This document shows, piece after piece, positions 3-29,410 of a stretch of DNA of 64,000 nt. Under the pieces are notes generated by a model that worked only from the letters and a program-made list of their open reading frames with translations, had not been told where the DNA came from and did not search any database. The DNA is from Gammaproteobacteria bacterium (GTDB taxonomy: Bacteria > Pseudomonadota > Gammaproteobacteria > Xanthomonadales > SZUA-36): positions 124,001 through 188,000 of the forward strand of contig JAJFLA010000032.1 in the NCBI GenBank assembly GCA_021772935.1, written 5' to 3'. The translations under genes were made by a program, and so were the position numbers. The first letter of the stretch is position 1. Each line of letters opens with the position of its first letter.

Positions 3-572
3 GATGATCGCAATGCCACCAGCCTTGCGTTACAGGTACGAATCGTTGAGGAAGGTACTGAATCGAACGTGCTGATGTTCGGCGATCACGCTTATCCAGT
101 GTTGCGAAAAATCTTTGATCATAGTGAAGCGGCTGATCTCGCGTGGGGCGCGTTCTTGACTGCCCATCATTGCTCAAAGTCCGCTATGTACTGGGCGGAT
201 ACCGCAAACGATGAAGAAACACTTCGACAAGATATTTTAGATGATCTCAGTGTGAACGGGGTCGAACCTGGCTACTGTGTTTCGAGTTGTGAGCCCATTC
301 CGGGCAGCAATAAGAAAGGAGAAAATCCTCCGCACGCAAAAGCGAAACGACGCTATGAAGAGATTGTTGACAAAGGCCGTTTTCTGGTTACCCAGGAACA
401 TCCAGACGAAGGCAAGCCCGAACCCATTACGTTCGAAGCAACTGCCGACGGGTTGACGTTCACGGGCTCAACGTCCGCGTCAATGCCAAAGAGTAAGGCG
501 AAAGTGGCAGCTGCTGCAGTTATTGCTCCGCCAGCTGCACCGCGGGAGCCTCAGCGGTACGGAAGACCGTAA
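3..572 (+). CDS. Metallo-beta-lactamase-fold hydrolase, C-terminal part (5' end outside window)
   Basis: The reading frame is open from base 3, so the gene starts left of the window. What remains reads like the C-terminal half of a ComEC/Rec2-type metallo-beta-lactamase fold: a beta strand, the metal-ligand-like motif MFGDHAY at about 69-89, then the LTAHHCSKS motif where the family usually has a HHGS-type ligand. The last 35 or so residues are low in complexity and rich in Ala, Pro, Lys and Arg, ending QRYGRP; this looks like a disordered tail. The next gene begins 4 bases after the stop, so the two are co-transcribed and probably translationally coupled. Comparative genomics has placed metallo-beta-lactamase genes beside bacterial E1/E2/JAB genes. 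The substrate is unknown. The N-terminal HxHxDH motif cannot be checked here. Confidence 0.7.
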   Translation, partial: DDRNATSLALQVRIVEEGTESNVLMFGDHAYPVLRKIFDHSEAADLAWGAFLTAHHCSKSAMYWADTANDEETLRQDILDDLSVNGVEPGYCVSSCEPIPGSNKKGENPPHAKAKRRYEEIVDKGRFLVTQEHPDEGKPEPITFEATADGLTFTGSTSASMPKSKAKVAAAAVIAPPAAPREPQRYGRP

Positions 573-576
573 CGGT

Positions 577-2862
577 ATGGTTAGTTCCGAGCAGCTCACC
601 GACGCGCTAACGGATCTCAAGGCTCTCGAAGCTGATTCCGAATTCGGTATTGAGGTCGTGCGGATCTGCAAGCCGAAAAAGCAAAGTGAGCCACTGCTTG
701 TGGATGTGTCCATAGATTGCAGCAGTCTTGTGCACACTAGTAAAGGCCTCAAGTTGCGCTCTCGCGAGCGGTTCTGGTTATGCTTTTCGCCTGATTTCCC
801 TTTAGATCCGCCGACAGTTTTTGCGCCAGACAGACGCTTTGCTTTTCATGATCACGTTTACTGGATGGATGCACTCGGCGTTAATCTTTGCGTGTATTAC
901 AGTACTGAACAACAATGGCAACCGGCTCTTGGTGTCACGGGCTTTGTACACAGATTTATGCAATGGCTGGAAGATGCCGTGGGTGGGACTCTCGATCGCC
1001 AGGATCAACCATTCCACCCACCACAGGTTCTTGGTGATCTGGCGAAACAATTCTTTGTAGTACGTGCGGATTGTCCAGATTTCAATGCTGCATGGTTAGG
1101 CTATGCCGTGTTGGAACCAAAACTGGAAAATCGAATTGACCTTGTAGATTGGACACAAGATTGGAGTGTCCACAGGAATAGGACATTGGCACCGACAATA
1201 CTGGTTGATACACCTTTCGTCTCCGAATTTCCCAAGCATGTCAGTTCTCTTTTGATATTGCTGGAGCGCGTAGGCGTTGACACGGGAGCTCTAGCGAACC
1301 TTTTATTGGTGCATGCGCAACACTCGAAGGGGCGTCCACCTATGTTTTTGGTGCTCGGGGTGGCAATGCGTGGAACGATTGGCCAGCAAGCCAACCAACA
1401 TCTGGTAGTTTGGCGGATTGGCGATCGTGACGCGAACGATTTACGAAACTTGGTACGACGGCGTAAAAAGTATTCGGAGAAAAGTGCCAAGGCGACATTC
1501 AATCGGGGCACGACATTGATTGAGCAATGGAAAGAATCTCCGCGCCGGTTGACCTTTTGTACAGTTTATGAAGACCGCCCTGAAATTGTCACGCGTCGGG
1601 ATAACAAGTCCAAGGTAGCCTGGTTCAATGGTAAAACAGTCACGCTATGGGGTGTCGGTGCGTTGGGCTCTCCGATTGCAGAGCACTTGGTGCGCGCTGG
1701 GCTGACTGAGCTACGACTCGTTGATTCGCAAAGGGTAACACCCGGGCTTTTAGTTCGACAAAATTATCGTGACACCGATATTGGTAAATCCAAAGTGGAA
1801 GCGCTGAAACAACATCTGATGGCCATAAATCCCAAGCTCAGAGTTGTTTCATTTCCAAATAATTTGTTGAGTGCAGGGGAATGGTTCGATCAGTCATTGG
1901 TTGATACAGATGCGCTGATTGATGCAACAGCATCACGGCGAGTGGCGATGGTGATTGACAGGTTGTTGCGTGACAAAGGGCCACTTCGGCACCCGGTTGT
2001 CACCGTGGCCAACGATTTACATGCGGAAATGGGGATATTCACCGTAACACCTGCAGACAACTCTCTCGGACCGACTGACTTACTGCATCGTGCATTCCTT
2101 GCTCTGAACAACGCGGAAGCGAACGATTACTTGGACGCGTTCTGGCCAATTGCAGATGAAAGTATTTGGTTTGAGCCTGAACCGGGTTGTTCGTCACCTA
2201 CCTTCCGAGGCAGCAATGCCGATGCGGGCGCCTTGGCCGGTAGTATGCTAGCGCACGTTGGTCAAGAACTGAGCACAACATCCTCCTCGCTCGTCATATG
2301 TGGAAGGACAACAGCCATCGATGATGTGCCAGGATACCGGTTTGAATTCGCCACGGGTAGCCAACATACGTGCCCTGATACCGGCTATCAGGTGCGTTTC
2401 TTCCCCGAGGCAGAGGCATCCATGTTGGATATCATTGGGGCCGAGCAGCAAGGTGGGCAAGATCCACGGGAGACCGGCGGCGTGTTGTATGGTTATAAAG
2501 ACGATTTTCTGCGTGTGATGTGGGTGGTGGCCGCCTCACCACCACCGCTGGATAGTCGTCGTGCTCAGTACGAGTTCGTTTGTGGTGTAGAAGGCGTCGC
2601 AGAAGAAACTGCTGACTGGCAACAACGTTCGTCGAAATTGGTGGGTTTTCTCGGAACCTGGCATAGCCACCCTGTCAGTTCGGCAGTACCGAGCGTTGTC
2701 GACCTTGGCGCCATGGAACACCTATTGCGACAATCGGGTTCACCTCGACATCGACTGTTGTTGGTTGTCGTTGGCCACAGCGCATCGAAACCGTTAGTGG
2801 GTAGCTATGTGTTCGGCGGACAAAGCGAGGATTCGATTACACATAATGGGAATCCTCTATAA
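577..2862 (+). CDS. E2-E1-JAB triple-domain fusion, bacterial ubiquitin-like conjugation/deconjugation protein
   Basis: A 761-residue protein with three ubiquitin-pathway domains in one chain. Residues about 20-150 are an E2-like fold with candidate catalytic Cys105 in GVNLCVYYS, followed by a Trp/Pro-rich helix. Residues about 340-570 are a ThiF/E1 adenylation domain: GVGALGS loop at 359-365, then RQNYRDTDIGKSK, and a candidate E1 cysteine at 538 in PGCSSPTFRG. Residues about 600-750 are a JAB/JAMM protease: Glu632, then His696-Ser-His698 and Asp709, matching E...HxHx10D. Type II CBASS uses a Cap2 (E2-E1) and a separate Cap3 (JAB); here all are joined, and no CD-NTase is visible. A TTG start at 523 would overlap the upstream gene by 50 bases; the ATG at 577 with GGAAG upstream is preferred. 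All catalytic residues appear intact. Confidence 0.85.
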   Translation: MVSSEQLTDALTDLKALEADSEFGIEVVRICKPKKQSEPLLVDVSIDCSSLVHTSKGLKLRSRERFWLCFSPDFPLDPPTVFAPDRRFAFHDHVYWMDALGVNLCVYYSTEQQWQPALGVTGFVHRFMQWLEDAVGGTLDRQDQPFHPPQVLGDLAKQFFVVRADCPDFNAAWLGYAVLEPKLENRIDLVDWTQDWSVHRNRTLAPTILVDTPFVSEFPKHVSSLLILLERVGVDTGALANLLLVHAQHSKGRPPMFLVLGVAMRGTIGQQANQHLVVWRIGDRDANDLRNLVRRRKKYSEKSAKATFNRGTTLIEQWKESPRRLTFCTVYEDRPEIVTRRDNKSKVAWFNGKTVTLWGVGALGSPIAEHLVRAGLTELRLVDSQRVTPGLLVRQNYRDTDIGKSKVEALKQHLMAINPKLRVVSFPNNLLSAGEWFDQSLVDTDALIDATASRRVAMVIDRLLRDKGPLRHPVVTVANDLHAEMGIFTVTPADNSLGPTDLLHRAFLALNNAEANDYLDAFWPIADESIWFEPEPGCSSPTFRGSNADAGALAGSMLAHVGQELSTTSSSLVICGRTTAIDDVPGYRFEFATGSQHTCPDTGYQVRFFPEAEASMLDIIGAEQQGGQDPRETGGVLYGYKDDFLRVMWVVAASPPPLDSRRAQYEFVCGVEGVAEETADWQQRSSKLVGFLGTWHSHPVSSAVPSVVDLGAMEHLLRQSGSPRHRLLLVVVGHSASKPLVGSYVFGGQSEDSITHNGNPL

Positions 2863-15859: not shown

Positions 15860-16828
15860 TTATCCCCATAAACGTGGGCTGAATACATCCACGGCACCCT
15901 TGTGGTAGTTGAGTCCAAGCGGTTGGTCGTATTTCAAAAGCAACGGCCCATCGATATCTACGAAGTCACACAGCTGGGCGACCACGAACGAGGGCGCCAT
16001 GCTGAGCGATGTTCCCATCATGTTGCCCACCATTAATTTACAACCTTTTGCCTTTGCGGCTCTTGCCAGACGCAGTCCTTCAGTCAGCCCCCCTGTTTTG
16101 TCCAGCTTGATATTGATCATGCTGTAGCGTCGGATTGCGGTTTCCAGTTCGCCAGTATGCAGGCAAGACTCATCTGCTGCCAGGGTGATAGGGGATTCAA
16201 AACCCTCCAGCATTTCATCAACACCCCGGGCAAGCGGTTGCTCGAGCATGGCCAGGTTTAAGTCGACACATTTAGGTAATACTTCCTTCATTAGTTCGAA
16301 GCTCCAACCCTGGTTGGCATCCACTACCAGTTCGGCATCTGGGCGTGCTGCGCGAATGGCGGCCAGCTTTTCATACGGCATCTGAGCATCGAGTTTGATT
16401 TTGAGTATCGGTGCATCGGCAGCCTTGGCAGCCATGGCCTCAGGTGTATCTTCCAGCCCGATAGTGAAAACTGTTGTGACCGGCTTTGGCTCAATACCGG
16501 TGAGTTGCCATATAGTCTTATTGGTGCGCTTGCACTCCAGATCCCACATAGCGCAATCAATGGCATTGCGCGCACCGCCTGGGGGCATGAGGTTTTGCAG
16601 CTCTTCGCGGGATATGCCCTTACGTATCACATCGGCAACTGCGTGAGCTTGTTCGAAAATACTTTCCGCAGTTTCATCCAGGTAAAAAACACCCTGGGCC
16701 TCACCGCGTCCGATAAACCCATCCTGGCCGAGTTGTACCACCAGACAACGAGAGTTGGTCCATTCGTTACCAGAGATACGGAACGGTTGGGTCAGTACCC
16801 AGTCTGTGATGTGTGTGCTGAAATCCAT
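15860..16828 (-). CDS. dgcA: Enolase-superfamily epimerase, likely N-acetyl-D-glutamate racemase DgcA
   Basis: A 322-residue muconate-lactonizing-type enolase superfamily member. Catalytic Lys sits in LKIKLDA (KxK), metal ligands are in VVDANQGW, MLEQPL and AADESC, and the second base Lys in NIKLDKTGG, as in dipeptide epimerases. Next to a DUF1611/DgcN gene this matches the DgcN-DgcA pair described for marine bacterial D-glutamate use, where DgcA turns N-acetyl-D-glutamate into N-acetyl-L-glutamate. The start is the ATG at 16828, with GGAGG about 10 bases upstream and only 4 bases after the dgcN stop; a longer frame would overlap dgcN. A true L-Ala-D/L-Glu epimerase is the alternative. Confidence 0.75.
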   Translation of the reverse strand: MDFSTHITDWVLTQPFRISGNEWTNSRCLVVQLGQDGFIGRGEAQGVFYLDETAESIFEQAHAVADVIRKGISREELQNLMPPGGARNAIDCAMWDLECKRTNKTIWQLTGIEPKPVTTVFTIGLEDTPEAMAAKAADAPILKIKLDAQMPYEKLAAIRAARPDAELVVDANQGWSFELMKEVLPKCVDLNLAMLEQPLARGVDEMLEGFESPITLAADESCLHTGELETAIRRYSMINIKLDKTGGLTEGLRLARAAKAKGCKLMVGNMMGTSLSMAPSFVVAQLCDFVDIDGPLLLKYDQPLGLNYHKGAVDVFSPRLWG

Positions 16829-16832
16829 GCCC

Positions 16833-17867
16833 TTATCCCTCCGGGTATTGTTGTTTGATAAACTCGACAATCTCCCCGCAACCGTCGATCAGCGGATCAA
16901 CGCAGGGTAAGCCGGTTTCTTTATTTAATTTTGCCAGGTAGCCCTTGCGTTTGTCTGTGAGTAACTTTGATGTGTTTACACTGATACCGACACAACGGAT
17001 GTCTGGGTTGGTACGGCGTCCCATTATGACATGCTGGTCGATACAGCTCTGGATGGTGGGTAGGGTGTAGTGCTCCCAACCAGAAATGACGCTACGGGTG
17101 GCATCGTGGCAAAGTACAAAAGCATCCGGCTGTGATCCATGAAGGAGCCCCAGACTGACACCAGAATAAGCCGGGTGAAATAGAGAACCCTGACCTTCGA
17201 TGACATCCCAGTGATTATCGTCGTTATCGGGTGAGATCAACTCTGCAGCCCCGGAAATAAAATCCGCCACGACCGCATCGATGGGAAGACCTTCGCCGGC
17301 CAGCATGATGCCGGTTTGACCGGTGGCACGGAAAGTGGAATTCATGCCCGCCGCCTGCATGGAGCGGTCCAGTGCAAGCGCGGTGTATTTCTTACCAATG
17401 GCGCAATCGGTGCCCACCATTAATACACGCTTCCCAGAGCGCTTTAAACCGGTGCCTATCGGCAGCTTGTCAGGTGGATTACGCACGTCGATCAAACGTG
17501 CACCTGAAGTCTTGGCTGCCGCCACCACTTTGGGGAAGCTCGATAGTTTAAAGTGCAAGCCGCAAACTATATCCAAACCAGCACGGGCGGCTTCCTCAAT
17601 GGTTGCCCACCAGCTGTCAGGAACCACCCCACCGATCGGTGCAACACCAATAACAAGACTTCTGGCGCCCGCACCTACAGCCTCGGCGACAGTCATGTCA
17701 GGTACACCCATATCTACTTCGCCGCCAGCAAAACGTAATTGCCCGACAACCAAGTCAGGACGCCAATCAACAATGCCCAATCCGGTCTTGGCGTAGGTTG
17801 GATCGGCCAAATCACCGATCAGGATCAGGTATGGTGCTTTAAGGTGCACTGTGGTCAATTTTGTCAT
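16833..17867 (-). CDS. dgcN: DUF1611 P-loop protein, likely D-glutamate N-acetyltransferase DgcN
   Basis: A 344-residue DUF1611 protein. The N-terminal half is Rossmann-like (YLILIGDLADPTYAKTGLG, then DWRPDLVVGQLRFAGG). The C-terminal half has a P-loop-like VLMVGTDCAIGKKYTAL at about 185-201 and the conserved VIEGQGSLFHPAYSG. This family was shown in marine bacteria to acetylate D-glutamate as the first step of D-glutamate catabolism (DgcN). It leads a minus-strand operon with dgcA 4 bases behind. The ATG at 17867 is chosen over a longer TTG start at 17897 because the family's conserved region begins a few residues after it. No DgcR-like regulator is in the window. Confidence 0.75.
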   Translation of the reverse strand: MTKLTTVHLKAPYLILIGDLADPTYAKTGLGIVDWRPDLVVGQLRFAGGEVDMGVPDMTVAEAVGAGARSLVIGVAPIGGVVPDSWWATIEEAARAGLDIVCGLHFKLSSFPKVVAAAKTSGARLIDVRNPPDKLPIGTGLKRSGKRVLMVGTDCAIGKKYTALALDRSMQAAGMNSTFRATGQTGIMLAGEGLPIDAVVADFISGAAELISPDNDDNHWDVIEGQGSLFHPAYSGVSLGLLHGSQPDAFVLCHDATRSVISGWEHYTLPTIQSCIDQHVIMGRRTNPDIRCVGISVNTSKLLTDKRKGYLAKLNKETGLPCVDPLIDGCGEIVEFIKQQYPEG

Positions 17868-18058
17868 GTAGGTAGATTCCGAATACCGAGCTAACAATTC
17901 TAATAGGATCGCACCTGATTGGGGTTTTGATGTTGGTTAAAAAAACCATTACTACTGGCTTGAGACTTTCCAACCAGGGATTGCCTGATTTCCCAACAAA
18001 ACCTTAAAACGATACTCCTTGTATTGGAGAGCAAGCAAAAGTACTTTGACTCAAATTC

Positions 18059-20044
18059 TCAACGGGAGCGGTGCTGTTCCAATAAGGTGAAAATTTGCAT
18101 ATGTCCGGTTTCCTTTGCCAGATCTTTCGCAGTTTTGTGGTTCTTATCGACAAGCCGCGTATTCACACCTGCCTCTAGCAATAAAATAACCACGTCACGT
18201 TGGTCTGCAATTACTGCTCGCATAAGTGCACTTTGACCTTGAAGATTCTGAAGATTTGGCTTAGCACCTGCCTGCAACAAAAGATGCATGATCTGGGTGT
18301 TGCCAACAGCTGCCGCGATACTCAGTGTCGAATTGCCTGAGGTCGAAAGCACATCCGGATGAATGCCATATTGAAACAATACCTGCACGCTAGCGGAGTC
18401 TCCCTTACTTATCGCCTGGATAAGTGGGTGCTGGGTTGAATTGCCCCTGATATCGGTGCTGGCGCCACTATCCAGCAGTAATGTCAAGTTTTGGGGGCGC
18501 CCTGAGTTTATGCTGTACCAAACGGCGCTACGGCCCCGCTTATCCATCAGGTCCAGGTCCGCTCCATCAATCAGCAACTGCTGGAGCAGCTCACTCGATT
18601 CACCTGCTGCAGCTATCATTAATGCAGTCAGGTTGGTTGGTGAACGCCAGTTGATATCCGCGCCTAAGGCCAACAACAGGTCTGCAGCCTTTTTATCCTG
18701 TTGGAAACAGGCCAGTAACAAGGCTGAATAACCGGTAGTGGGTTGCGCGTCGCTTAGTGACGCATGTGCAATTACAAGGCTGCGGATAACTTCAAGGTGA
18801 CCATACTGCGTTGCCCATAATAAGGGTGTAAAGCCATTGTTATGACGACTATTTGGATCAGCTCCTGCGTCTAGCAATATACGCACGATTTCCACATGGC
18901 CGCGCCAGGCCGCACGGCTTAGTGCGGTGTGTCCATCCTTATCAGTTGCATTGACATCCGGTCGGGATTCCAGAACCTGTCTTACAACATCAACTTCACC
19001 ACGCCACGCCGCATACATCAAGGCCGTCCAACCTGCCTGCCCCTCTGCGGTATGGGTCAGGTCAACCTCACCAATGCGTCGCGAATCATCTGCCTTCATA
19101 GGATCAACCGCACCGTGTTCAAGCAGGATTTGTTCGATACGCTGGTAATTATGCTGCCGGGCAGCTATCAAGGCCGTCCATTCTCTGTTATCGACAGACT
19201 CAATACTGGCGCCACCTGCCAATAACGCCAGAACCATGTCATCATTGCCAATTGACGCCGCAATGATCAAGGCCGTATTTCCAGCCCTGTCCCTGCCGTC
19301 CACATCTGCCCCAGCGGTCAGTAACATGGATACAATGGCTGGTTTTTCTGAACGTACCGCACAATGTAGCGGAATCAAACGATCCGAAACAACATCCTCA
19401 TGACTGATACCATTGGGGTTCGCACCACTTTGCAGCAATATTTCAATAATTTCTGTATGCCCGGCAGTGATGGCCTCAAGCAGGGGGGGTCTTTGCCCGC
19501 TGTCGACGGGGCTTTCATCTTGAATGACCGCCAGTAGTGAGCGGACGATTTCAGCATCTCCCTGACGGATGGCCTGGTTCAGTGTTTTTTGGCGTTGCTG
19601 CATGGTCATACCGGTCAAAACCGGTTGGCTTGGCTGTTCCATGGCCTGTAAAGCTTCTGTTGCCATGGCGTGATTCTGCAAGGCTGCCTTTTCAAACCAT
19701 GCCCGTGCGCTGGCCCGGTTTTCCTGATTTTCACTTTCACTCAACAAAAGTTGCCCCATACCGTATTGCGCATGGACATCACCTGCTGTTGCCGCCGCCG
19801 ACATCCATTCGTTGGCGAGTTCGGGGTCCTTTTCCACACCGCGCCCTACCCGGTACATAGTGGCCAACTGACAAGCAGCTTCCGCATCACCTGATCGGGC
19901 CAGGCTCTCATAGATATTGACAGCTGATGCATAGTCGCGAACTCGAATGGCGGCACGTGCATCATCGAACGTTTGGCCATCTACCGCGACTGGCAGCAGG
20001 ATCAGGCTAATCAGGGTGACGGTGAAAAGCTTGCGCCAAATCAT
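18059..20044 (-). CDS. Exported Sel1- and ankyrin-repeat protein
   Basis: A 661-residue protein. A signal peptide (KLFTVTLISLILLPVAVDG) covers about 1-23. Residues about 25-145 hold Sel1-like repeats (AACQLATMYRVGRGVEKD, HAQYGMGQLLLSES). From about 150 to the end there are roughly 15 ankyrin repeats, each with a TALxxAAxxGHxEIVxxLLxxGAD pattern. Proteins of this build act as periplasmic scaffolds or binding platforms. The ATG overlaps the stop of the Fe-S/FAD oxidoreductase gene (TGATG), so both are translated together. A role in assembling or anchoring the adjacent multiheme system is plausible, but only by context. Confidence 0.8.
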   Translation of the reverse strand: MIWRKLFTVTLISLILLPVAVDGQTFDDARAAIRVRDYASAVNIYESLARSGDAEAACQLATMYRVGRGVEKDPELANEWMSAAATAGDVHAQYGMGQLLLSESENQENRASARAWFEKAALQNHAMATEALQAMEQPSQPVLTGMTMQQRQKTLNQAIRQGDAEIVRSLLAVIQDESPVDSGQRPPLLEAITAGHTEIIEILLQSGANPNGISHEDVVSDRLIPLHCAVRSEKPAIVSMLLTAGADVDGRDRAGNTALIIAASIGNDDMVLALLAGGASIESVDNREWTALIAARQHNYQRIEQILLEHGAVDPMKADDSRRIGEVDLTHTAEGQAGWTALMYAAWRGEVDVVRQVLESRPDVNATDKDGHTALSRAAWRGHVEIVRILLDAGADPNSRHNNGFTPLLWATQYGHLEVIRSLVIAHASLSDAQPTTGYSALLLACFQQDKKAADLLLALGADINWRSPTNLTALMIAAAGESSELLQQLLIDGADLDLMDKRGRSAVWYSINSGRPQNLTLLLDSGASTDIRGNSTQHPLIQAISKGDSASVQVLFQYGIHPDVLSTSGNSTLSIAAAVGNTQIMHLLLQAGAKPNLQNLQGQSALMRAVIADQRDVVILLLEAGVNTRLVDKNHKTAKDLAKETGHMQIFTLLEQHRSR

Positions 20045-21369
20045 CAGGCTATTCCAAACTTGGTTTCGACATCGATACCAATCGAGCGTAGAAACGCTGT
20101 GGGCAATATACCGCCCGCACTGATGATGACAGCATCATTGGGCAATTTAAAATGTCTGTCGTGCTGTTCCAGTTCTACCGCCTCCTCGGAGATGGCCCTG
20201 ACATTTGATTCCAGCATAACTTTGAGCCTCCCGGTTGAGACCGCGTCTTCAACAGCCTGCCGGTTTTTGGGTTTCGCCCTTGTAAACGCAGCTGACCGAT
20301 AGGAAATCGTGACCTCGGTTCCGTCGACCCCGGCAATCGCACAGGCTGCCTCCAGAGCGCTGTCACCACCACCGACGACCAACACCCGATGATTCTGGTG
20401 CTGCACAGGATCCTCCAGGCTATAAGTGACTTTAGGCAAGTTTTCTCCGGGGACATCCAGCGTTCGCGGTGTCCCTCGCCGACCGATGGCAAGCAGAACC
20501 GAATGAGTTCTGTAAGTATTCTTGCTGGTTTGAACCTCAAACCCCTGCTCGATGACCGTCATGCTTTCCATCCGTTCATTGTAATTGATGCAAACACCGG
20601 TGTCTTTTTCAGCCTGCTGCCAAAACGTTAAGAGTTTTTCCTTGGTCGTATTTTTGAAAGGAAATTCCCCGACCATGGGCAAAATTGCAGGCTGTGTCAT
20701 GACCATTTTTCCTCGAGGGTAGTGCGCAACCGTGCCACCCAGTACTTCCTGCTCTATCGTCGCAAAACGCAAACCCTTCTCCATGGCTGCCAGTGAGGCC
20801 GTAAACCCGGCCGGCCCGGCACCCACAATCAACAGGTCCAACTCGTTGTTATGTTGTTTGCTCATGTCAGTACAAATGGATTCAACGGACTGTCTGCCCT
20901 GTTCAATGGCATTACGAATCAGCCCCATGCCGCCCAGCTCTCCCGCGATAAAAATACCACCAACATTGGTTTCAAAATTTGGTTTCAGATGGGGGATGTC
21001 TACGCCACGTTTTTTAGTTCCAAACACCAGTTGAAGGGCGTCATGCGGACAGGCGATGAAACATGCTCCATGACCGATGCACTCGGTGGGGCTAATCAAT
21101 TCAGCCTTGCTGTGTATCAGCCCCAGCACCTTGTGACCAGGTTGTTCAGGACAAGCGGCTATACAGGCCCCGCAGCCGGTGCACTTCAAGGGGTCGATTA
21201 ACGGATGGAGTGAAGGTGGTTCGGTCAGGCCAGACTGAATGATTTTGGATTTTAGGAGGATATTCTCCCGCTGTTGCCGCGTCATCCTGTAGATATATAA
21301 CAACAGGATCAGAGCCAGTGGAAACACATATATCGCAAGCGACAGAGGGTCCAGAGAACCGATATTCAA
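20044..21369 (-). CDS. Membrane-anchored Fe-S/FAD NAD(P)-dependent oxidoreductase
   Basis: A 441-residue protein. An N-terminal transmembrane helix (about 8-27) precedes a two-cluster ferredoxin domain (about 55-120) and a thioredoxin-reductase-like FAD/NAD(P) module. The first cluster is a regular CTGCGACIAACP. The second reads CIGHGACFIACP, with His in place of the second Cys. FAD binding is at LLIVGAGPAGFTAS (about 180), NAD(P) binding at VLVVGGGDSALEAAC (about 325); no CxxC redox disulfide follows the FAD domain. It would pass electrons between NAD(P)H, Fe-S clusters and a membrane or quinone partner. The start codon is a TTG and is uncertain. It faces the cytochrome genes across a 378-base gap. 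Confidence 0.8.
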   Translation of the reverse strand: MNIGSLDPLSLAIYVFPLALILLLYIYRMTRQQRENILLKSKIIQSGLTEPPSLHPLIDPLKCTGCGACIAACPEQPGHKVLGLIHSKAELISPTECIGHGACFIACPHDALQLVFGTKKRGVDIPHLKPNFETNVGGIFIAGELGGMGLIRNAIEQGRQSVESICTDMSKQHNNELDLLIVGAGPAGFTASLAAMEKGLRFATIEQEVLGGTVAHYPRGKMVMTQPAILPMVGEFPFKNTTKEKLLTFWQQAEKDTGVCINYNERMESMTVIEQGFEVQTSKNTYRTHSVLLAIGRRGTPRTLDVPGENLPKVTYSLEDPVQHQNHRVLVVGGGDSALEAACAIAGVDGTEVTISYRSAAFTRAKPKNRQAVEDAVSTGRLKVMLESNVRAISEEAVELEQHDRHFKLPNDAVIISAGGILPTAFLRSIGIDVETKFGIA

Positions 21370-21747
21370 AGGTGAATTCCATGCGATGTAGCTGTCGTTG
21401 CTACGCCTATCATTACTTGCATATTGATTACCCGGATAGTGTTTGATTCCACGTTGCGGTCAAGATGATATATGTTTTATGTGTCTTTAGACAATATATT
21501 CAAGCAACGTTCTCCGCTAAGGAACTGGATGATTTTAAATAATTAATCCACTGTTTAGTGTGCTTTTTTCATTATTCACCAAAATTAAATATTTAATTTA
21601 ATAATTCTTTAAGAAAACTCACGTATCCTTTTTATCGAGTCACCATGGCGTCTGATTTTGCTTTGAGTAAATAGCAAGTTGTGGTTGTTTGGTCAAGGGG
21701 CAAAGAGGACTGGATCTTAATGAATTACTTTATGGAAGAGTATCCGC
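21370..21747 (+). other. Divergent intergenic region of the electron-transfer locus
   Basis: This 378-base gap separates the minus-strand oxidoreductase operon from the plus-strand cytochrome operon. It is markedly AT-rich at about 21530-21620 (runs such as AAATATTTAATTTAATAATTC) and must hold promoters in both directions. I found no perfect FNR-type (TTGAT-N4-ATCAA) site and no clear paired -35/-10 boxes. No RNA gene is evident. Confidence 0.4.
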
Positions 21748-22674
21748 ATGGCCAGTATTGAGGAAACAGTTGTAATCAATAGTGTGAACGAGGGTTCAGC
21801 GTCGTTCCCATTGCAATTCAAAAGTATATTCCGAGTGATTCGGTCCCGTCTCACATGGCTGAGTTTTGTGGCAACGACGCTGGCTGTTTACGCTGGCTGG
21901 ATTGGACGCTATGAGCGAAACATAACAGCAGAAAATGGCATGGGTTATGCCCTGGGTATCGTGGGCGCCTCAATGATGGCCGCTTTACTCATTTATCCAT
22001 TGCGTAAACGGATATCTTCCTTGCGCGTTTTGGGACCGACCCGGGTCTGGTTTAAACTTCACATGCTTCTGGGCATCATTGGTCCAGTCCTGATCTTGTA
22101 CCACTCCAATTTTACCGTGAGTTCACTCAATTCCCGTGTCGCACTTTTCTGTACTTTACTGGTGGCCGTTAGCGGCCTGATCGGTCGGTATCTTTACGCG
22201 CAAGTTCACCACGGATTGTATGGTGGCAAGAGCAGTTTGCGTTCCCTGGTTGGACAGATGCATGGTTCCATGACTGCGGTCACTGCATCAGGGCCGGTTA
22301 TGGCAGAGTTTCTTGAACAAATCACTGCCATTGATAATTCGGTGCTCGAACCGCCTAGAAATGTTTTCCACAGTGCCATTCGACCTTTTTTATTCGCTTT
22401 CAGGACGCGTTTGGTCTACTTGCAAATGAGCTTGAGGTTGCGACGCAATATGGCCTTTCAGGCACTGCCAGCAACCACGCTTGCCCAACGGGAAAGAGAA
22501 AATGTTCGGGCAACCCGGCTCAATTTGCGTCGACATCTTAAGCAGGTCCGCAAAGTTGCCCACCTGGGCTTTTTTGAAAGGCTGTTTTCTCTCTGGCACA
22601 TATTGCACCTGCCCTTCTTTCTCATGTTGCTAATATCTGTAATAGTGCATATCGTCGCCGTACACATGTACTGA
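21748..22674 (+). CDS. Multi-pass membrane protein, candidate b-type cytochrome
   Basis: A 308-residue protein with four N-terminal helices (about 33-51, 63-85, 103-121, 127-149), a basic cytoplasmic-type loop of about 120 residues, and a last helix at about 280-306. Histidines sit inside or at the ends of helices: KLHMLLG and ILYHSNF in helix three, and SLWHILHLP and IVHIVAVHMY in the last. This is the pattern of ferric-reductase or cytochrome-b561-like heme proteins. As first gene of the cytochrome operon it is a natural quinol-to-cytochrome entry point. I do not recognise a named family, so heme binding is inference. Confidence 0.65.
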   Translation: MASIEETVVINSVNEGSASFPLQFKSIFRVIRSRLTWLSFVATTLAVYAGWIGRYERNITAENGMGYALGIVGASMMAALLIYPLRKRISSLRVLGPTRVWFKLHMLLGIIGPVLILYHSNFTVSSLNSRVALFCTLLVAVSGLIGRYLYAQVHHGLYGGKSSLRSLVGQMHGSMTAVTASGPVMAEFLEQITAIDNSVLEPPRNVFHSAIRPFLFAFRTRLVYLQMSLRLRRNMAFQALPATTLAQRERENVRATRLNLRRHLKQVRKVAHLGFFERLFSLWHILHLPFFLMLLISVIVHIVAVHMY

Positions 22675-22690
22675 TCTTGAATCAACCCTG

Positions 22691-24268
22691 ATGATATCGT
22701 ACAGAAAAGTGTCATTGATAGCAGGACTATCCCTGCTGGTTTTTAGTTCTCAGGTATTTGTATACGCAGCACCAATCGAAACACTGGTCATGCCTGGTCC
22801 AGTCAGCGCAGCCCATGCTGATATTGAGGTCGAGTGCTCAGGATGCCATGCAGCATTTTCCAAGACATTGCAACGCGATTTGTGTCTTTCCTGCCATGAT
22901 CACATTAGCGTAAAAGAAGACCTTGAAGCGGGGACGGGATTTCATGGCCGTTCTGAAACTGTCGGCAAAGCAGAATGTGCCACCTGCCATGCGGAACATG
23001 AAGGACGTACAGCTAACATCGTCGGTCTGGATATTGAAACGTTCGACCATGACATAACCGACTTTGTACTTGAAGGGTCCCACGCTGAGCGTGTTTGTGA
23101 GGATTGTCATGCAGCAGACAAATTGCCTCGAGAAGCGCCGTCCGCATGTTTTGACTGTCACGAGGCCAAAGACAGCCACAAGGGTAAGTTGGGCAAGGAA
23201 TGTGGCAATTGTCATCGGGAAACCGACTGGCAAACAACCAAATTCGACCACACAAAAGATACGGAATATATCCTGACCGGAGCACATCAGGTGGTTGAAT
23301 GTGTGTTATGCCACACCAATCAGACCTACAAAGGAATTTCAACAGATTGCCATTCATGCCATCAAATCGATGACCGGCATCAGGGAAATTTCGGCAAGGA
23401 CTGCAAACAATGCCATAAAACAGAAGACTGGAAAAAGAATACTTTTGATCACAAAAAGAGCAGCGATTTCGCTTTGCAAGACCGCCACACTGAAATTGAA
23501 TGCAGCAGTTGCCATCTGGCAAACCAGTTCAAGGAAGAACTGGCGCATGAATGTGTTTCTTGCCACTTGGCAGACGATATCCACCAAGGTGCCAATAAAG
23601 TCGACTGTGGTGCCTGCCATAACAGCCGCGAGTGGAAAAGCGTCAAATTCGATCACCAGAAAGACACAGACTTTCCGTTGAACGGTGCGCATTTCGAACT
23701 GGAGTGCCGTATGTGTCACTCTGGCGGCACTATAGATATGGAGCTAGACACAGCCTGCATCAATTGCCACCAGGTGAACGATGTTCATCAACAAAGCCTG
23801 GGTGAAAATTGCGTGCGCTGTCACGGGGAATCCGGTTGGACATCGGACGTTCTTTTCGATCATGATCTCACCCGCTTTCCGCTCATCGGTATGCATTCAG
23901 TTGTATTGTGTGAGGCCTGTCACCTATCTCCGCGATTTGCAGATACCCCCGGACAATGCCTGGACTGTCACAGTCAGAGTGATACCCAACATGATACATT
24001 CGGAACAGACTGTGGTAGCTGTCACAACCCAAACGACTGGCTCCTGTGGGAATTTGACCATCAAAGTACGGGCTTTGTGCTGGATGGGGCACATGCAGAT
24101 CTAAACTGCCAAAACTGTCACAAAAAAGGCTGGGATTACCAGGCCAAAAAACAGTTCACCTGTGTTGATTGTCATCGCAACGATGATATTCACTCCGGGG
24201 AATTCGGACGGCACTGCTCACGTTGCCATAACAGTCACTCATTTGAATACTCTGGAACAATTCAATGA
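22691..24268 (+). CDS. Periplasmic multiheme cytochrome c, 21 CXXCH motifs
   Basis: A 525-residue exported protein. A signal peptide ends near residue 28 (LLVFSSQVFVYAA). I count 21 CXXCH heme-attachment motifs, spaced 17-30 residues apart, and extra His residues (such as FDH and GAH before each pair) that fit bis-His ligation. The recurring unit is roughly FDHxxDxxFxLxGAHxxxxCxxCH followed by a second CxxCH, as in class III-like and NrfH/DmsE-type modules. It begins 16 bases after the membrane-protein gene and overlaps the next cytochrome gene by 4 bases. The likely role is to carry electrons across the periplasm. Cytochrome c maturation genes are not in the window. Confidence 0.9.
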   Translation: MISYRKVSLIAGLSLLVFSSQVFVYAAPIETLVMPGPVSAAHADIEVECSGCHAAFSKTLQRDLCLSCHDHISVKEDLEAGTGFHGRSETVGKAECATCHAEHEGRTANIVGLDIETFDHDITDFVLEGSHAERVCEDCHAADKLPREAPSACFDCHEAKDSHKGKLGKECGNCHRETDWQTTKFDHTKDTEYILTGAHQVVECVLCHTNQTYKGISTDCHSCHQIDDRHQGNFGKDCKQCHKTEDWKKNTFDHKKSSDFALQDRHTEIECSSCHLANQFKEELAHECVSCHLADDIHQGANKVDCGACHNSREWKSVKFDHQKDTDFPLNGAHFELECRMCHSGGTIDMELDTACINCHQVNDVHQQSLGENCVRCHGESGWTSDVLFDHDLTRFPLIGMHSVVLCEACHLSPRFADTPGQCLDCHSQSDTQHDTFGTDCGSCHNPNDWLLWEFDHQSTGFVLDGAHADLNCQNCHKKGWDYQAKKQFTCVDCHRNDDIHSGEFGRHCSRCHNSHSFEYSGTIQ

Positions 24269-27258
24269 ACAGAATCCCTATGTTGGTTTTGAGTTTCATA
24301 CTGCTCGGTTTGCCTATACAGGTATTGGGCCAGTCGACATTCCAGTCAGATTTTGATCACTTTTCAACCAGCTTCACCTTGGAAGGTGCCCACCGGGCCG
24401 TGGAGTGTGCGTCTTGTCACGTCGGTGGTGTGTTTGAAGGCACCCCACGGGAGTGCTCCAATTGCCACAGCCGTGGAGGTCTGGTTTTTGCGACACCATT
24501 GCCACTGCAACACATACAGACCACCAACCAGTGCCAGGATTGTCATCTGGAAACCTGGTGGACGCCGGTGGCGAATCTGGACCATAATCAGGTTCTTGGC
24601 AGTTGTAAGAATTGCCATGACGGCATTATCGCCACAGGCAAGGGCCCCGGCCATATTTTTACCACCGATGTCTGTGAGGATTGTCATACCTCCGAGCTTT
24701 GGGAACCGGTGGCACGGGTCGACCACTTCCAGGTGCAGGGCAGTTGCGGCAGTTGTCACGATGGTGTGATCAGCGTAAGCAAACCTCTCAATCATGTACC
24801 GACACTGGCAGAATGTGATGTCTGCCACACCACCATTGCCTGGGTTCCGGCCAACTTTGATCATCAGGAAGTCACCGAGACCTGTATCACCTGTCACGAC
24901 GGCATCATTGCCACTGCCAAGGGCCTTGGTCATATATCCACTACCAATGTCTGCGAGGATTGTCATTCCACCAACCTGTGGGAACCGGCGATCCAGGTCG
25001 ACCACTTCCAGGTACTGGGTAGCTGTGACAGTTGTCACGATGGTGTCATCAGCGAAGGTAAATCCGTCAATCATTTACCGACACTGGGGCAGTGTGATGT
25101 CTGTCACACCACCACTGCATGGATCCCCGCTAGCTTCGATCATCAAGATACAATCGAGACCTGCACCACTTGTCACAATGGTGTCATCAGCGAGGGCAAA
25201 TCCGTTAATCACCTGCCGACATTGGCAGAATGTGATGTCTGTCACAGCAACACCGCCTGGCTTCCTGCCACCTTCGATCACCAGGATACGACCGAGACCT
25301 GTATCACCTGTCACGAGGGTGTTATCGCCACTGGCAAGGGTCTGGATCATATATCCACTACCAATGTTTGCGAGGATTGTCATTCCACCGAGCTATGGGA
25401 ACCGGCGACCCAGGTCGACCATTTCCAGGTGCTGGGTAGCTGTAACAGCTGTCACGATGGTGTGATTGCCGAAGGTAAATCCTTGGATCATCTGCCAACG
25501 ATCGCAGAATGTGGTGATTGCCATTCCACCACCGCTTGGCTTCCGGCCAACTTCGATCACGAGAATCTCATCGAGACCTGCGTCACCTGCCACGACGGCA
25601 CCATCGCCACTGGCAAGGGTTTGGAGCATGTATCCACCACCAATGTCTGCGAGGATTGTCATTCCACCAACCTGTGGGAACCGGTGACGTTGGTTGATCA
25701 CTTGCAGGTTCTCGGAACCTGTGTTTCCTGCCATGATGGCATCACTGCGATTGGTAAGGGTCTGGAACACATCAGCACCACCAACGTGTGTGAGGACTGT
25801 CATACCACTGATATTTGGGAACCTGTGACACTGGTTGATCACTTACAGGTAATAGGTAGCTGTGACAGTTGTCACGATGGTGTCATCAGCGAAGGTAAAT
25901 CCGTCAATCATTTACCGACACTGGGGCAGTGTGATGTCTGCCACAGCACCACCGCATGGATCCCCGCTAACTTTGATCACCAAGATACAATCGAGACCTG
26001 CACCACCTGTCACGATGGTATCATCAGCGAGGGCAAAGCCGTCAATCACGTGCCGACATTGGCAGAATGTGATGTCTGTCATAGCAACACCGCCTGGCTT
26101 CCTGCCACCTTTGATCACCAGGACGTGACCGAGACCTGTATTACCTGCCACGACGGTATCACTGCCACTGGCAAGGGTTTGGATCATATATCCACTACCA
26201 ATGTCTGCGAGGACTGTCATTCCACCGAGCTGTGGGAACCGGCGACCCAGGTCGACCACTTCCAGGTGCTGGGTAGCTGTAACAGTTGTCACGATGGTGT
26301 GATTGCCGAAGGCAAAGCCATCAATCACCTGCCGACATTGGCAGAATGTGATGTCTGTCATAGCAGCACCGCCTGGCTTCCGGCTACCTTTGATCACCAG
26401 GATGTGACCGAGACCTGTATCACCTGTCACGACAGTATCATCGCCACTGGCAAGGGTCTGGATCATATATCCACTACCAATGTCTGCGAGGATTGTCATT
26501 CCACCGAGCTATGGGAACCGGCGACCCAGATCGACCACTTCCAGGTGCTGGGCAGCTGTAACACTTGTCACGACGGTGTGATTGCCGAAGGCAAATCGCT
26601 GGATCATCTGCCAACGACCGCAGAGTGTGATGATTGTCACACTACCAATGCATGGTTACCGGCAAATTTTGACCACGCAGCAGTGACTCCGGGCACCTGT
26701 ATAAGTTGCCATGATGGCATCATCGCGGAAGGAAAAGACCAGAATCATGTAGCAACATCTTCCGAGTGTGACTTGTGTCATTCCACCGTTGCCTGGACTC
26801 CGGCGAATTTCGATCATGATAGCGCTACAGGATCATGCTCGAGTTGCCATGATGGCATCATTGCGGAAGGAAAAGATTCCTCGCACTTCATCACCAACAG
26901 GGAATGTGACCACTGCCACGACAATAATTTCTGGGAACCACTGATATTCAGTCATCTTTCTGCAACTTATCCGGGGGATCACTCGGAGCCACTTGGTTGT
27001 TCTGACTGTCATGAGCGTAATTCAGAGGTTGTGAGCTGGTCGTCACCACAGTTCCAGCCAGACTGTGCATCCTGTCATGCAAGCGACTATGAAACAGACG
27101 AACATACAAAGTTCAACAACCCGGAAACTTTCTACGGCGTCAGTGAGCTCCGAGATTGCACCGGAGCCTGTCATGAGTATACCGATTCCACCCTCTCGAA
27201 CATTAGCAAGAGTCGACCGGGACCAGAACACAGGGTGAACGATCGTGACTTTGATTAG
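24265..27258 (+). CDS. Giant repetitive multiheme cytochrome c, 39 CXXCH motifs
   Basis: A 997-residue exported protein; the signal peptide is at about 1-22. I count 39 CXXCH motifs plus one terminal CTGACH (CX3CH). Most of the chain is a tandem array of 46-47-residue modules, each with two hemes. They alternate between one type with THNV-like STTNVCEDCH and LWEP, and one with LPTLAECDVCH and AWLPA, giving a 93-residue super-repeat. Each heme pair has an extra His (VDHFQV, NFDHQD, KGLDHIS) suited to axial ligation. It could form a long heme wire in the periplasm or through the barrel protein encoded next, whose GTG start overlaps its 3' end by 14 bases. Confidence 0.92.
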   Translation: MNRIPMLVLSFILLGLPIQVLGQSTFQSDFDHFSTSFTLEGAHRAVECASCHVGGVFEGTPRECSNCHSRGGLVFATPLPLQHIQTTNQCQDCHLETWWTPVANLDHNQVLGSCKNCHDGIIATGKGPGHIFTTDVCEDCHTSELWEPVARVDHFQVQGSCGSCHDGVISVSKPLNHVPTLAECDVCHTTIAWVPANFDHQEVTETCITCHDGIIATAKGLGHISTTNVCEDCHSTNLWEPAIQVDHFQVLGSCDSCHDGVISEGKSVNHLPTLGQCDVCHTTTAWIPASFDHQDTIETCTTCHNGVISEGKSVNHLPTLAECDVCHSNTAWLPATFDHQDTTETCITCHEGVIATGKGLDHISTTNVCEDCHSTELWEPATQVDHFQVLGSCNSCHDGVIAEGKSLDHLPTIAECGDCHSTTAWLPANFDHENLIETCVTCHDGTIATGKGLEHVSTTNVCEDCHSTNLWEPVTLVDHLQVLGTCVSCHDGITAIGKGLEHISTTNVCEDCHTTDIWEPVTLVDHLQVIGSCDSCHDGVISEGKSVNHLPTLGQCDVCHSTTAWIPANFDHQDTIETCTTCHDGIISEGKAVNHVPTLAECDVCHSNTAWLPATFDHQDVTETCITCHDGITATGKGLDHISTTNVCEDCHSTELWEPATQVDHFQVLGSCNSCHDGVIAEGKAINHLPTLAECDVCHSSTAWLPATFDHQDVTETCITCHDSIIATGKGLDHISTTNVCEDCHSTELWEPATQIDHFQVLGSCNTCHDGVIAEGKSLDHLPTTAECDDCHTTNAWLPANFDHAAVTPGTCISCHDGIIAEGKDQNHVATSSECDLCHSTVAWTPANFDHDSATGSCSSCHDGIIAEGKDSSHFITNRECDHCHDNNFWEPLIFSHLSATYPGDHSEPLGCSDCHERNSEVVSWSSPQFQPDCASCHASDYETDEHTKFNNPETFYGVSELRDCTGACHEYTDSTLSNISKSRPGPEHRVNDRDFD
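24580..26900 (+). repeat. 279-bp tandem super-repeat inside the giant cytochrome gene
   Basis: DNA-level repeats underlie the protein array. A stretch beginning with the AGC at 25021 recurs nearly unchanged at 25858, 837 bases later (3 x 279). The segment starting CATATATCCACTACC at 25348 recurs at 26185 (837 later) and at 26464 (279 later). Copies differ mostly at silent positions. The unit is 93 codons with four hemes. This points to expansion by unequal crossing-over or slippage in multiples of 279 bases; strains may differ in copy number, and short-read assemblies could collapse it. Confidence 0.85.
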
Positions 27259-29410
27259 ACAAACCATATATCGGCTGGTATTGGTGCTGTTGCTGGTCAC
27301 TGCCAGCAGCACCAATGCCATGGCTGCCAGGAGTTCGGCAGTTGACAGTGTGCGCTTGACCGAGGTTGGTGACAGTGCCCGGATCGAGATCGTGCTCAGT
27401 TGTCCGAACCGATTCCTGGACTACTACCCTCAGGTAGAAACTGAGGTTTTGAAGATCAATCTGCTGCGTATGGAGCAATGCCTTTCTCTGAATTTACCCT
27501 CAGGCCGCCAGGAAGTTGATATATCTGGCCACAGCACAATTGTGGAGCTGGCGTCGGTGGAATATGAGGCGCGGCCTGGAGATGATGCCGTTTTGCACAT
27601 CAGGTTTGATCAATCTGTTGGCGCCGTGGTCAGTCAATCCGATGACCTTCGCCGGATTACCGTCATAGTCGAGACGGGTCACCGACTCACCAGCACTTTG
27701 CCTGTTGCAACATCATCCCCGACCACAAAAGGTATCAACCAGAATATAAGTGAGCCTGGAACAGGTGCAGCGCTGGGTGACCAGCCGCTGTCCGAGGCGC
27801 GGCTTGTGGCCTTAATGGGAGAGGCTGAAGCTGCCGTCTTGCAGGAAGACTACAACCGCTCCATTCAGGTTTACACACGCGTGCTGCGGGCTGCAGAAAA
27901 TATCCATACACCCCAGGCGTTGGAATTGCTGGGGTTGTCACGTGAGCGAAATGGTCAGAAAGCCCATGCGGTCGCAGAATATCAGCGCTATCTCGAATAT
28001 TACCCGGAAAATGAAGGCGCTGATCGCGTAAACCAACGCCTGGCAGGTCTGGTAACTGCACACAAGATTCCGAAGCCAGGCGAAAAGAGCCGCGCAGTTA
28101 CAAAAAGCCCCAGCGACTGGGACGCGTACGGTGGCATTTCGCAACACTATCGGCACGATACTTTCAAACTGAACGGTCAGGAATCTATCAATGCACAATC
28201 CTCCATATTAACCAACGCCGACCTGATGTTACGGCACCGTGGTACACGGATTGATCTATCCAGCCGCGTTTCACTAGGTAACATGTTGGATTTACTGGGT
28301 AGTGACAAGGGTCCGGGATCACAGAGCCGTCTTTATCAGGGTTATGTCGAAATCAGTGATCAGCCGACGAACCTCAGTGCTCGATTGGGCCGGCAAACCA
28401 TGCGCAACAACGGCGTTCTCGGCCGCTTTGACGGCTTGCATCTGGACTGGGAGTTCATGCCCGGAAAACGATTTAACCTTATGGCTGGATACCCGGTGGA
28501 CACCACCGCCGATGGTATTCAGACCAGCCGCCATTTCTTTGGCGCTGCAATAGATTTTGAACAAATTGCAGATATCGTCGATGTCAGTTTTTATTACAAC
28601 ACGCAAGAAATTGATGGTTTGAAAAACCGCGAAGCCATCGGTACTGAAGTCCGATATTTCGATAGTTCGAAATCACTCGTCGCCCTGATCGACTACGACA
28701 TTGGCTTCAATACATTAAACAATCTCATAGTAACGGGAAATTGGAACATCGGGGGTGGTCTCACTCTCAGCGCTTCAATCGACCACAGGTCCAGCCCCTT
28801 CCTGACGACCAGGAGCGCACTGATTGGTCAGCCTGTTGGCAGCATCGAGGAGCTATTGCAAATTTATACTTCCGATGTCATACGGCAACTGGCTAAAGAC
28901 CGGACTGGGTCTGTCGACTCTTTACGTCTGGGTGTATCGAAAAAACTTTCGGAGCGTTTTCAACTCAATGCAGATATGACCATGACTGGATTTGACGGCA
29001 CAATCGCATCAGAAGGTGTTTTGGCGACCCCGGACCAGGATACCCAGTATTACTTCTCGCTCAATCTTGTGGGTTCCAAATTGTTCATGGATGGGGATAC
29101 TTCCATTTTGGGCCTGCGTCATATCACTGGAATGACAAGTTCGACATCAACTTTGTCCTTGGATAGTCGTTTTCCACTGAGCAGAAAGTTTCGCATTAAT
29201 CCGAGATTCAGGGTATCGCGTCGCAACAGCAAGATGGATGACTCTGATTCGTGGACCGTGTCCCCGTCGCTACGCCTTTTATACCGTATCGGTCGCCGCT
29301 ATCGGTTGGATTTCGAGATAGGTAGTCAGTGGGTCAATCGGAATTCACCCAATGGTATAGGTGACCGAACATCCTGGTTCCTGTATGTAGGCTATCGTGC
29401 GGATTTCTGA
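27245..29410 (+). CDS. Predicted outer-membrane beta-barrel with AMIN-like and TPR regions
   Basis: A 721-residue exported protein. The signal peptide covers about 1-28 (VLVLLLVTASSTNAMAA). Residues about 33-145 form a beta-rich AMIN-like domain (ARIEIVLSCPNRFLDYYP), about 180-275 contain TPR-like helices (YNRSIQVYTRVLRAAEN, AVAEYQRYLEYYPENEGA), and from about 290 the chain is made of alternating amphipathic strands ending in YVGYRADF, a typical barrel end with terminal Phe. It starts with GTG inside the end of the cytochrome gene. By position and build it may be the barrel through which cytochromes pass electrons outward, in the manner of MtrB/PioB, but it shows no direct likeness to them. 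Confidence 0.7.
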   Translation: MTLIRQTIYRLVLVLLLVTASSTNAMAARSSAVDSVRLTEVGDSARIEIVLSCPNRFLDYYPQVETEVLKINLLRMEQCLSLNLPSGRQEVDISGHSTIVELASVEYEARPGDDAVLHIRFDQSVGAVVSQSDDLRRITVIVETGHRLTSTLPVATSSPTTKGINQNISEPGTGAALGDQPLSEARLVALMGEAEAAVLQEDYNRSIQVYTRVLRAAENIHTPQALELLGLSRERNGQKAHAVAEYQRYLEYYPENEGADRVNQRLAGLVTAHKIPKPGEKSRAVTKSPSDWDAYGGISQHYRHDTFKLNGQESINAQSSILTNADLMLRHRGTRIDLSSRVSLGNMLDLLGSDKGPGSQSRLYQGYVEISDQPTNLSARLGRQTMRNNGVLGRFDGLHLDWEFMPGKRFNLMAGYPVDTTADGIQTSRHFFGAAIDFEQIADIVDVSFYYNTQEIDGLKNREAIGTEVRYFDSSKSLVALIDYDIGFNTLNNLIVTGNWNIGGGLTLSASIDHRSSPFLTTRSALIGQPVGSIEELLQIYTSDVIRQLAKDRTGSVDSLRLGVSKKLSERFQLNADMTMTGFDGTIASEGVLATPDQDTQYYFSLNLVGSKLFMDGDTSILGLRHITGMTSSTSTLSLDSRFPLSRKFRINPRFRVSRRNSKMDDSDSWTVSPSLRLLYRIGRRYRLDFEIGSQWVNRNSPNGIGDRTSWFLYVGYRADF

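Follow-up and report, generated by a model that had tools for sequence, protein, structure and literature searches.

Which cytoplasmic electron carrier would a bacterium connect to the cell exterior when it encodes two overlapping genes for cytochromes with 21 and 39 haem motifs, next to genes for an inner-membrane protein (IMP), an outer-membrane barrel and an Fe-S/FAD oxidoreductase? This question was raised by the cluster at 18059-29410 of the window, the whole 64,000-nucleotide stretch that was analysed (Gammaproteobacteria bacterium, assembly GCA_021772935.1, contig JAJFLA010000032.1, positions 124,001 to 188,000 of the forward strand). A sequence-only reading had placed five of these genes, at 20044-29410, in a trans-envelope electron conduit matching no known Mtr, Omc or Pio layout. 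All five genes were present with those coordinates and strands, the counts of 21 and 39 CXXCH motifs in two genes overlapping by 4 bases were exact, and a conduit was plausible, as homology, motifs and the predicted barrel agreed. The claim of an undescribed layout did not survive the comparison with described conduits, one of which the cluster does match. Judged by its gene order, size and motifs, it is a PCC3 cluster, a known kind (He et al. 2017, PMC5566968), to which our analysis adds a regular flavoprotein partner, the unusual build of that partner and the implications for PCC3.

Identity of the cluster

The text of He et al. describes the PCC3 IMP as a conserved protein of approximately 300 aa that carries SGXXG and two WX3HX13H motifs, and gives the haem motifs as a median of 21 for the periplasmic and 34 for the extracellular cytochrome (PMC5566968). 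The IMP of the window (21748-22674, plus strand, 308 aa) fitted that description, and in an alignment of relatives the residues W101-H105-H119, S142-G143-G146 and W283-H287-H301 were kept in 30/30 (alignments were built from chosen rows, comprising 25 barrels, 30/79 oxidoreductases and 30/61 IMPs). It was followed on the same strand by a secreted cytochrome of 525 aa with 21 CXXCH motifs (22691-24268), corresponding to the "periplasmic MHC" (multihaem cytochrome) of PCC3, by a secreted cytochrome of 997 aa with 39 CXXCH motifs (24265-27258), the presumed counterpart of its "extracellular MHC", and by a barrel protein of 721 aa with a GTG start (27245-29410). The window had the IMP motifs, a 21-haem and a very large second cytochrome, and a porin, all in PCC3 order, and differed from PCC3 only in how many haems the second cytochrome has (39).

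The closest comparison was provided by Amphritea atlantica DSM 18887, a PCC3 host with printed haem counts of 63 and 21 in the text of He et al. (PMC5566968). Its locus (L172) showed the same order, with genes of 63 and 21 motifs and that for the IMP, and with the oxidoreductase and an ankyrin gene divergent from them, adjoining the cluster as in the window. Identities were 42% between the 39- and 63-haem proteins (1032 aligned columns), 46% for the 21-haem cytochrome (508 aa), 36% for the IMP, 59% for the oxidoreductase and 33% for the ankyrin protein; the Amphritea stretch as fetched ended before the barrel, and this homology rests on the other genes. Sideroxydans provides further PCC3 examples (Slit_0867-0870 and Slit_1446-1449).

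Searches with the IMP also returned loci of other kinds. At the level of the order, 27/151 genomes matched, this genome included. Twenty-seven loci from other genomes were read, and 25 of them were rejected as PCC3 clusters because they adjoined a cytochrome with 4 or 7 motifs and belonged to a different system. One locus (G076) was not counted, as it showed no cytochrome, and its 972-aa frame was rejected as an IMP-oxidoreductase fusion because, read by eye, a separate cNMP/Fe-S-type protein preceded the membrane protein. Another (G066; L037, C37, 6189-12185) was not counted because the second large cytochrome was not present; it held a variant cluster on one strand, with an oxidoreductase (43% identity), an IMP, a 30-motif cytochrome and an unclassified 489-aa protein. 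A search of plasmids with the IMP yielded one record, with 25.5% identity over 78%.

A flavoprotein as regular partner

Divergent from the IMP gene, at 20044-21369 on the minus strand, lay a membrane-anchored Fe-S/FAD oxidoreductase of 441 aa with a TTG start, matching Pfam Fer4 and Pyr_redox. The sequence-only reading rightly counted this gene as part of the conduit; the PCC3 text that was searched does not. The association was evident from searches for the barrel and the flavoprotein in the same 369 genomes of the class (flavoprotein threshold E 1e-50). The barrel was found in 48 genomes and the flavoprotein in 43; both occurred in 40, the barrel only in 8, the flavoprotein only in 3, and 318 had neither (p 6.6e-42 by Fisher's test, which disregards shared ancestry). 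The flavoprotein is thus a regular partner of PCC3 that nearly always accompanies the barrel.

Gene neighbourhoods gave the same picture. Forty stretches were fetched around barrel matches, other rows being left out mainly for short contigs, and 26/40 held the IMP, a cytochrome and the barrel together; the oxidoreductase was present in 23 of those 26 and the ankyrin protein in 16. Among the other three, the oxidoreductase was cut by the stretch end in G497 and lay on another contig in G151, and in G250 the contig ended soon after the IMP. A scan of named oxidoreductases covered the best 80 of 546 relatives, many of whose loci were cut by contig ends, so that its percentages are not population frequencies. 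These 80 loci included an IMP in 67, a cytochrome with at least four motifs in 64, an ankyrin homologue in 59 and a barrel in 38; the IMP was divergent and upstream of the oxidoreductase in 60, and four had all genes in one direction with the oxidoreductase first. The named relatives in this set included Thiodiazotropha, Sedimenticola, Hyphomicrobium and Methylococcaceae records, as well as some metagenome-assembled genomes labelled Deltaproteobacteria or Nitrospirae. Two oxidoreductase matches were split or contained in-frame stops (G183:C1:2217463-2219028 and G247:C317:1536-2363), through decay or assembly error.

The barrel was spread over 41/272 sampled genera of the class. In the family to which this genome belongs, the oxidoreductase occurred in this genome only (1/39), so the island was probably acquired by horizontal transfer.

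The build of the flavoprotein was unusual. It combined a transmembrane (TM) helix, two ferredoxin motifs and a circularly permuted FAD/NAD(P) fold. The second ferredoxin motif reads CxxHxxCxxxCP, with His in a Cys position; this His was kept in 20/20 rows of the alignment drawn from barrel neighbourhoods (A1), the fair figure, as the 30/30 for H100 in alignment A3 arose partly by construction, one of the two search patterns having contained CIGHGAC. In the first motif, 3/20 A1 rows lacked the second Cys (C66). The structural model (pLDDT 83.7) had YpdA as its nearest fold and was close to thioredoxin and bacillithiol disulphide reductases. With the YpdA/TrxR-type ferredoxin-NADP reductases (7a76, 7a7b, 2zbw, 3ab1) the protein shared the FAD/NAD(P) fold, but it differed in the circular permutation, the TM anchor, the two ferredoxin motifs and the lack of a conserved dithiol: outside residues 63-107, no Cys column was kept in more than 10/30 aligned relatives. 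Its score against the YpdA disulphide reductase model TIGR04018 was 165.6 bits, short of the cut-off of 339.9.

The gene that follows, at 18059-20044 on the minus strand, encodes a protein of 661 aa with Sel1 and ankyrin repeats (Pfam Sel1 and Ank) and a hydrophobic, signal-peptide-like N-terminus. Its 1-base overlap with the oxidoreductase gene makes for a larger unit than first stated, of six genes. A homologue directly followed the oxidoreductase in 52 of the 70 loci where 1.2 kb or more of sequence was available for it, with a hydrophobic N-terminus in 45/52. The sequence indicates a probable periplasmic accessory protein, and a scaffold or assembly factor would be our best guess. In the text of the PCC3 papers, as covered by passages and term searches, neither the flavoprotein nor the ankyrin protein was named as a part of PCC3; the word "ankyrin" has 0 occurrences in it. 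The flavoprotein gene may nevertheless already appear in PMC5566968, in Figure 6 or Supplementary Table 4.

Cytochromes and barrel

The density of haem motifs in the two cytochromes was far from chance, as 500 shuffles of each protein gave means of 0.29 (525 aa) and 0.51 (997 aa) motifs, with maxima of 2 and 4. There were 25 residues per haem in the 21-haem cytochrome and repeats of about 23-24 residues in the 39-haem cytochrome. The larger protein, with a signal-like N-terminus and homology to the Amphritea 63-haem protein, also carried a single CX3CH at residue 965, so that 40 haems are possible; a CX3CH within the last 150 residues was found in 19/47 complete cytochromes of at least 10 motifs in related loci (21-motif ones left out). 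The second cytochrome varied from 8 to 67 motifs across 40 complete loci. His residues outside the motifs numbered 26 in the smaller and 43 in the larger protein, enough for bis-His ligation of every haem, and such ligation throughout, as for wires, would be our inference. Further doubled-CXXCH proteins were encoded outside the window in the same genome, at C44:51986-52363, C39:115685-116074 and C41:193188-194360, so its multihaem cytochromes exceed the PCC3 pair.

With MtrCAB, MtoAB and PioAB the cluster shared the principle of a porin with a multihaem cytochrome, but none of its proteins reached the curated cut-off for the decahaem MtrA type: against the MtrA/DmsE family (TIGR03508) the 39-haem protein scored 163.6 bits, below 192.2, and no match was listed for the 21-haem protein. 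PCC4, with a porin, three periplasmic cytochromes and no extracellular one, differed in that the window has two cytochrome genes.

The sequence-only reading would have been refuted had the outer-membrane protein not been predicted as a barrel, but it was so predicted. Its AlphaFold model (pLDDT 84.8, pTM 0.58) showed an N-terminal beta domain, TPR-like helices and a predicted barrel of 22 strands ending in Phe, and both Foldseek and VIA-align returned porins and ushers. As the Foldseek TM-scores were low (top match 0.27 by query length) and the root-mean-square deviations large, the claim is that of a predicted outer-membrane beta-barrel, and not of a particular relative. The listings for the barrel contained neither MtrB as a structure nor, at E values up to 0.05, an MtrB-type Pfam family; these were general listings and not an aimed test.

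Proposed electron path and its alternatives

From the gene content, motifs, predicted folds and co-occurrence we infer the cofactors, the partner, the electron path and, tentatively, its direction. The IMP contained, in 30/30 relatives, the two HX13H pairs of the ferric reductase/NOX domain and is predicted to carry two b-haems on its two His pairs. The text of He et al. likens the IMP to the ferric-reductase domain of FRE and NOX, yet proposes exchange with quinone (PMC5566968). The likeness to ferric reductases and NADPH oxidases lay in these His pairs and in the predicted order of NAD(P)H, flavin and haem b. The difference was that the window encodes the flavin part separately, as a TrxR-like protein that has ferredoxin motifs, and that the IMP had no match to the Pfam ferric-reductase model at E 0.05, the only match being MgtC (15.9 bits), under its cut-off. 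A split ferric reductase is known in MsrQ with Fre.

We somewhat favor the reading that the six genes form a PCC3 trans-envelope conduit with an NAD(P)H-linked flavoprotein at its cytoplasmic end, rather than or besides quinone. Cytoplasmic NAD(P)H would reduce, by hydride transfer, the FAD in the anchored flavoprotein, whose Fe-S clusters would hand single electrons to the b-haem pair of the IMP, the two proteins acting as a ferric reductase/NADPH oxidase split into two polypeptides. From the b-haems, electrons would enter the 21-haem wire, which would cross the periplasm, dock at the barrel and there meet the 39-haem wire outside; the b-haems could also have quinone as a partner, in addition or instead. 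Transfer from NAD(P)H to the outside is downhill and aided by the membrane potential, and reduction of NAD(P)+ by Fe(II) is uphill; the thermodynamically easy direction would be outward, to an extracellular acceptor.

Several points weigh against this reading. As a rule the flavoprotein gene runs divergently, and in some genomes it lies elsewhere; a strong barrel match (1.9e-109) stood with no flavoprotein at the cut-off in G449, and the flavoprotein with no barrel at the cut-off in G242, G247 and G473. No IMP-flavoprotein fusion turned up among the loci read. RuBisCO was found in 28/40 genomes with both genes versus 153/329 others (p 0.007, relatedness ignored), and its greater frequency among hosts agrees more with electron uptake by autotrophs than with export. 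According to the text of the CL21 study, one PCC3 IMP rises as Sideroxydans CL21 becomes able to oxidise iron, and the partner proposed for the IMP in the text of He et al. is quinone (PMC5566968). On these last three points the published view of PCC3 would draw, by which Fe(II), minerals or other cells outside would donate electrons that flow inward along the two wires, reaching the IMP and then the quinone pool, and the flavoprotein would be ancillary, for instance in NAD(P)+ reduction or redox sensing. We hold this to be rather unlikely, as it leaves the near-constant pairing of flavoprotein and barrel unexplained and would face the uphill reduction of NAD(P)+ by Fe(II). In addition, 12 of the 40 genomes, this one among them, had no RuBisCO match, and the text of the ES-1 study has the two PCC3 clusters of S. 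lithotrophicus ES-1 falling on Fe(II)-citrate versus thiosulfate; both observations favor an outward role.

Two further explanations concern single components of the cluster. The barrel, with TPR-like helices ahead of it and FimD, PelB and BcsC among its Foldseek matches, might be an usher- or BcsC/PelB-like export channel for the giant cytochrome instead of a sheath around a cytochrome. Ordinary porins and TonB-dependent receptors matched it about equally well, so the barrel fold does not discriminate, and known conduits as a rule pair a porin with a cytochrome, according to the text of He et al. (PMC5566968); an export role is therefore very unlikely. The proximity of the flavoprotein fold to thioredoxin and bacillithiol disulphide reductases would suit a supplier of reductant for cytochrome making, keeping 60 Cys pairs reduced and taking no part in conduction. 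That role seems most improbable to us, since the protein has no conserved Cys beyond the ferredoxin motifs and such a task would not need those motifs.

Other features of the window

Within the cluster, the 39-haem cytochrome and barrel genes overlapped by 14 bases. Minus-strand open frames of 102 to 236 aa at 24364-26499, opposite the cytochrome repeats, look like shadows of the repeat composition and not genes. Outside the cluster, a 779-aa protein at 523-2862 (plus strand) combined prokaryotic E2, ThiF/E1 and JAB peptidase domains, with E1-E2 as its best PADLOC match (4.1e-84), and may represent ubiquitin-like conjugation with a link to anti-phage defence. At 15860-17897 (minus strand), a DUF1611 protein overlapped an enolase-superfamily protein, a pair that we take to resemble the DgcN/DgcA pair of D-glutamate catabolism.

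Implications for PCC3

PCC3 has repeatedly been listed as a candidate iron oxidase without a tested function; its role in extracellular electron transfer is left open in the text of He et al. (PMC5566968), and the text of the CL21 paper calls it functionally unverified. If an NAD(P)H flavoprotein is its regular partner, the quinone-based model and the assumed direction of flow need re-examination. We tentatively suggest, as a possibility that falls short of our expectation, that PCC3 may be a trans-envelope NAD(P)H oxidase, built like a ferric reductase/NOX in two halves, that bypasses the quinone pool and serves mainly in electron export or redox balancing, and not an iron oxidase. If this were true, the conduit would join a soluble cytoplasmic cofactor to the cell exterior without quinone.

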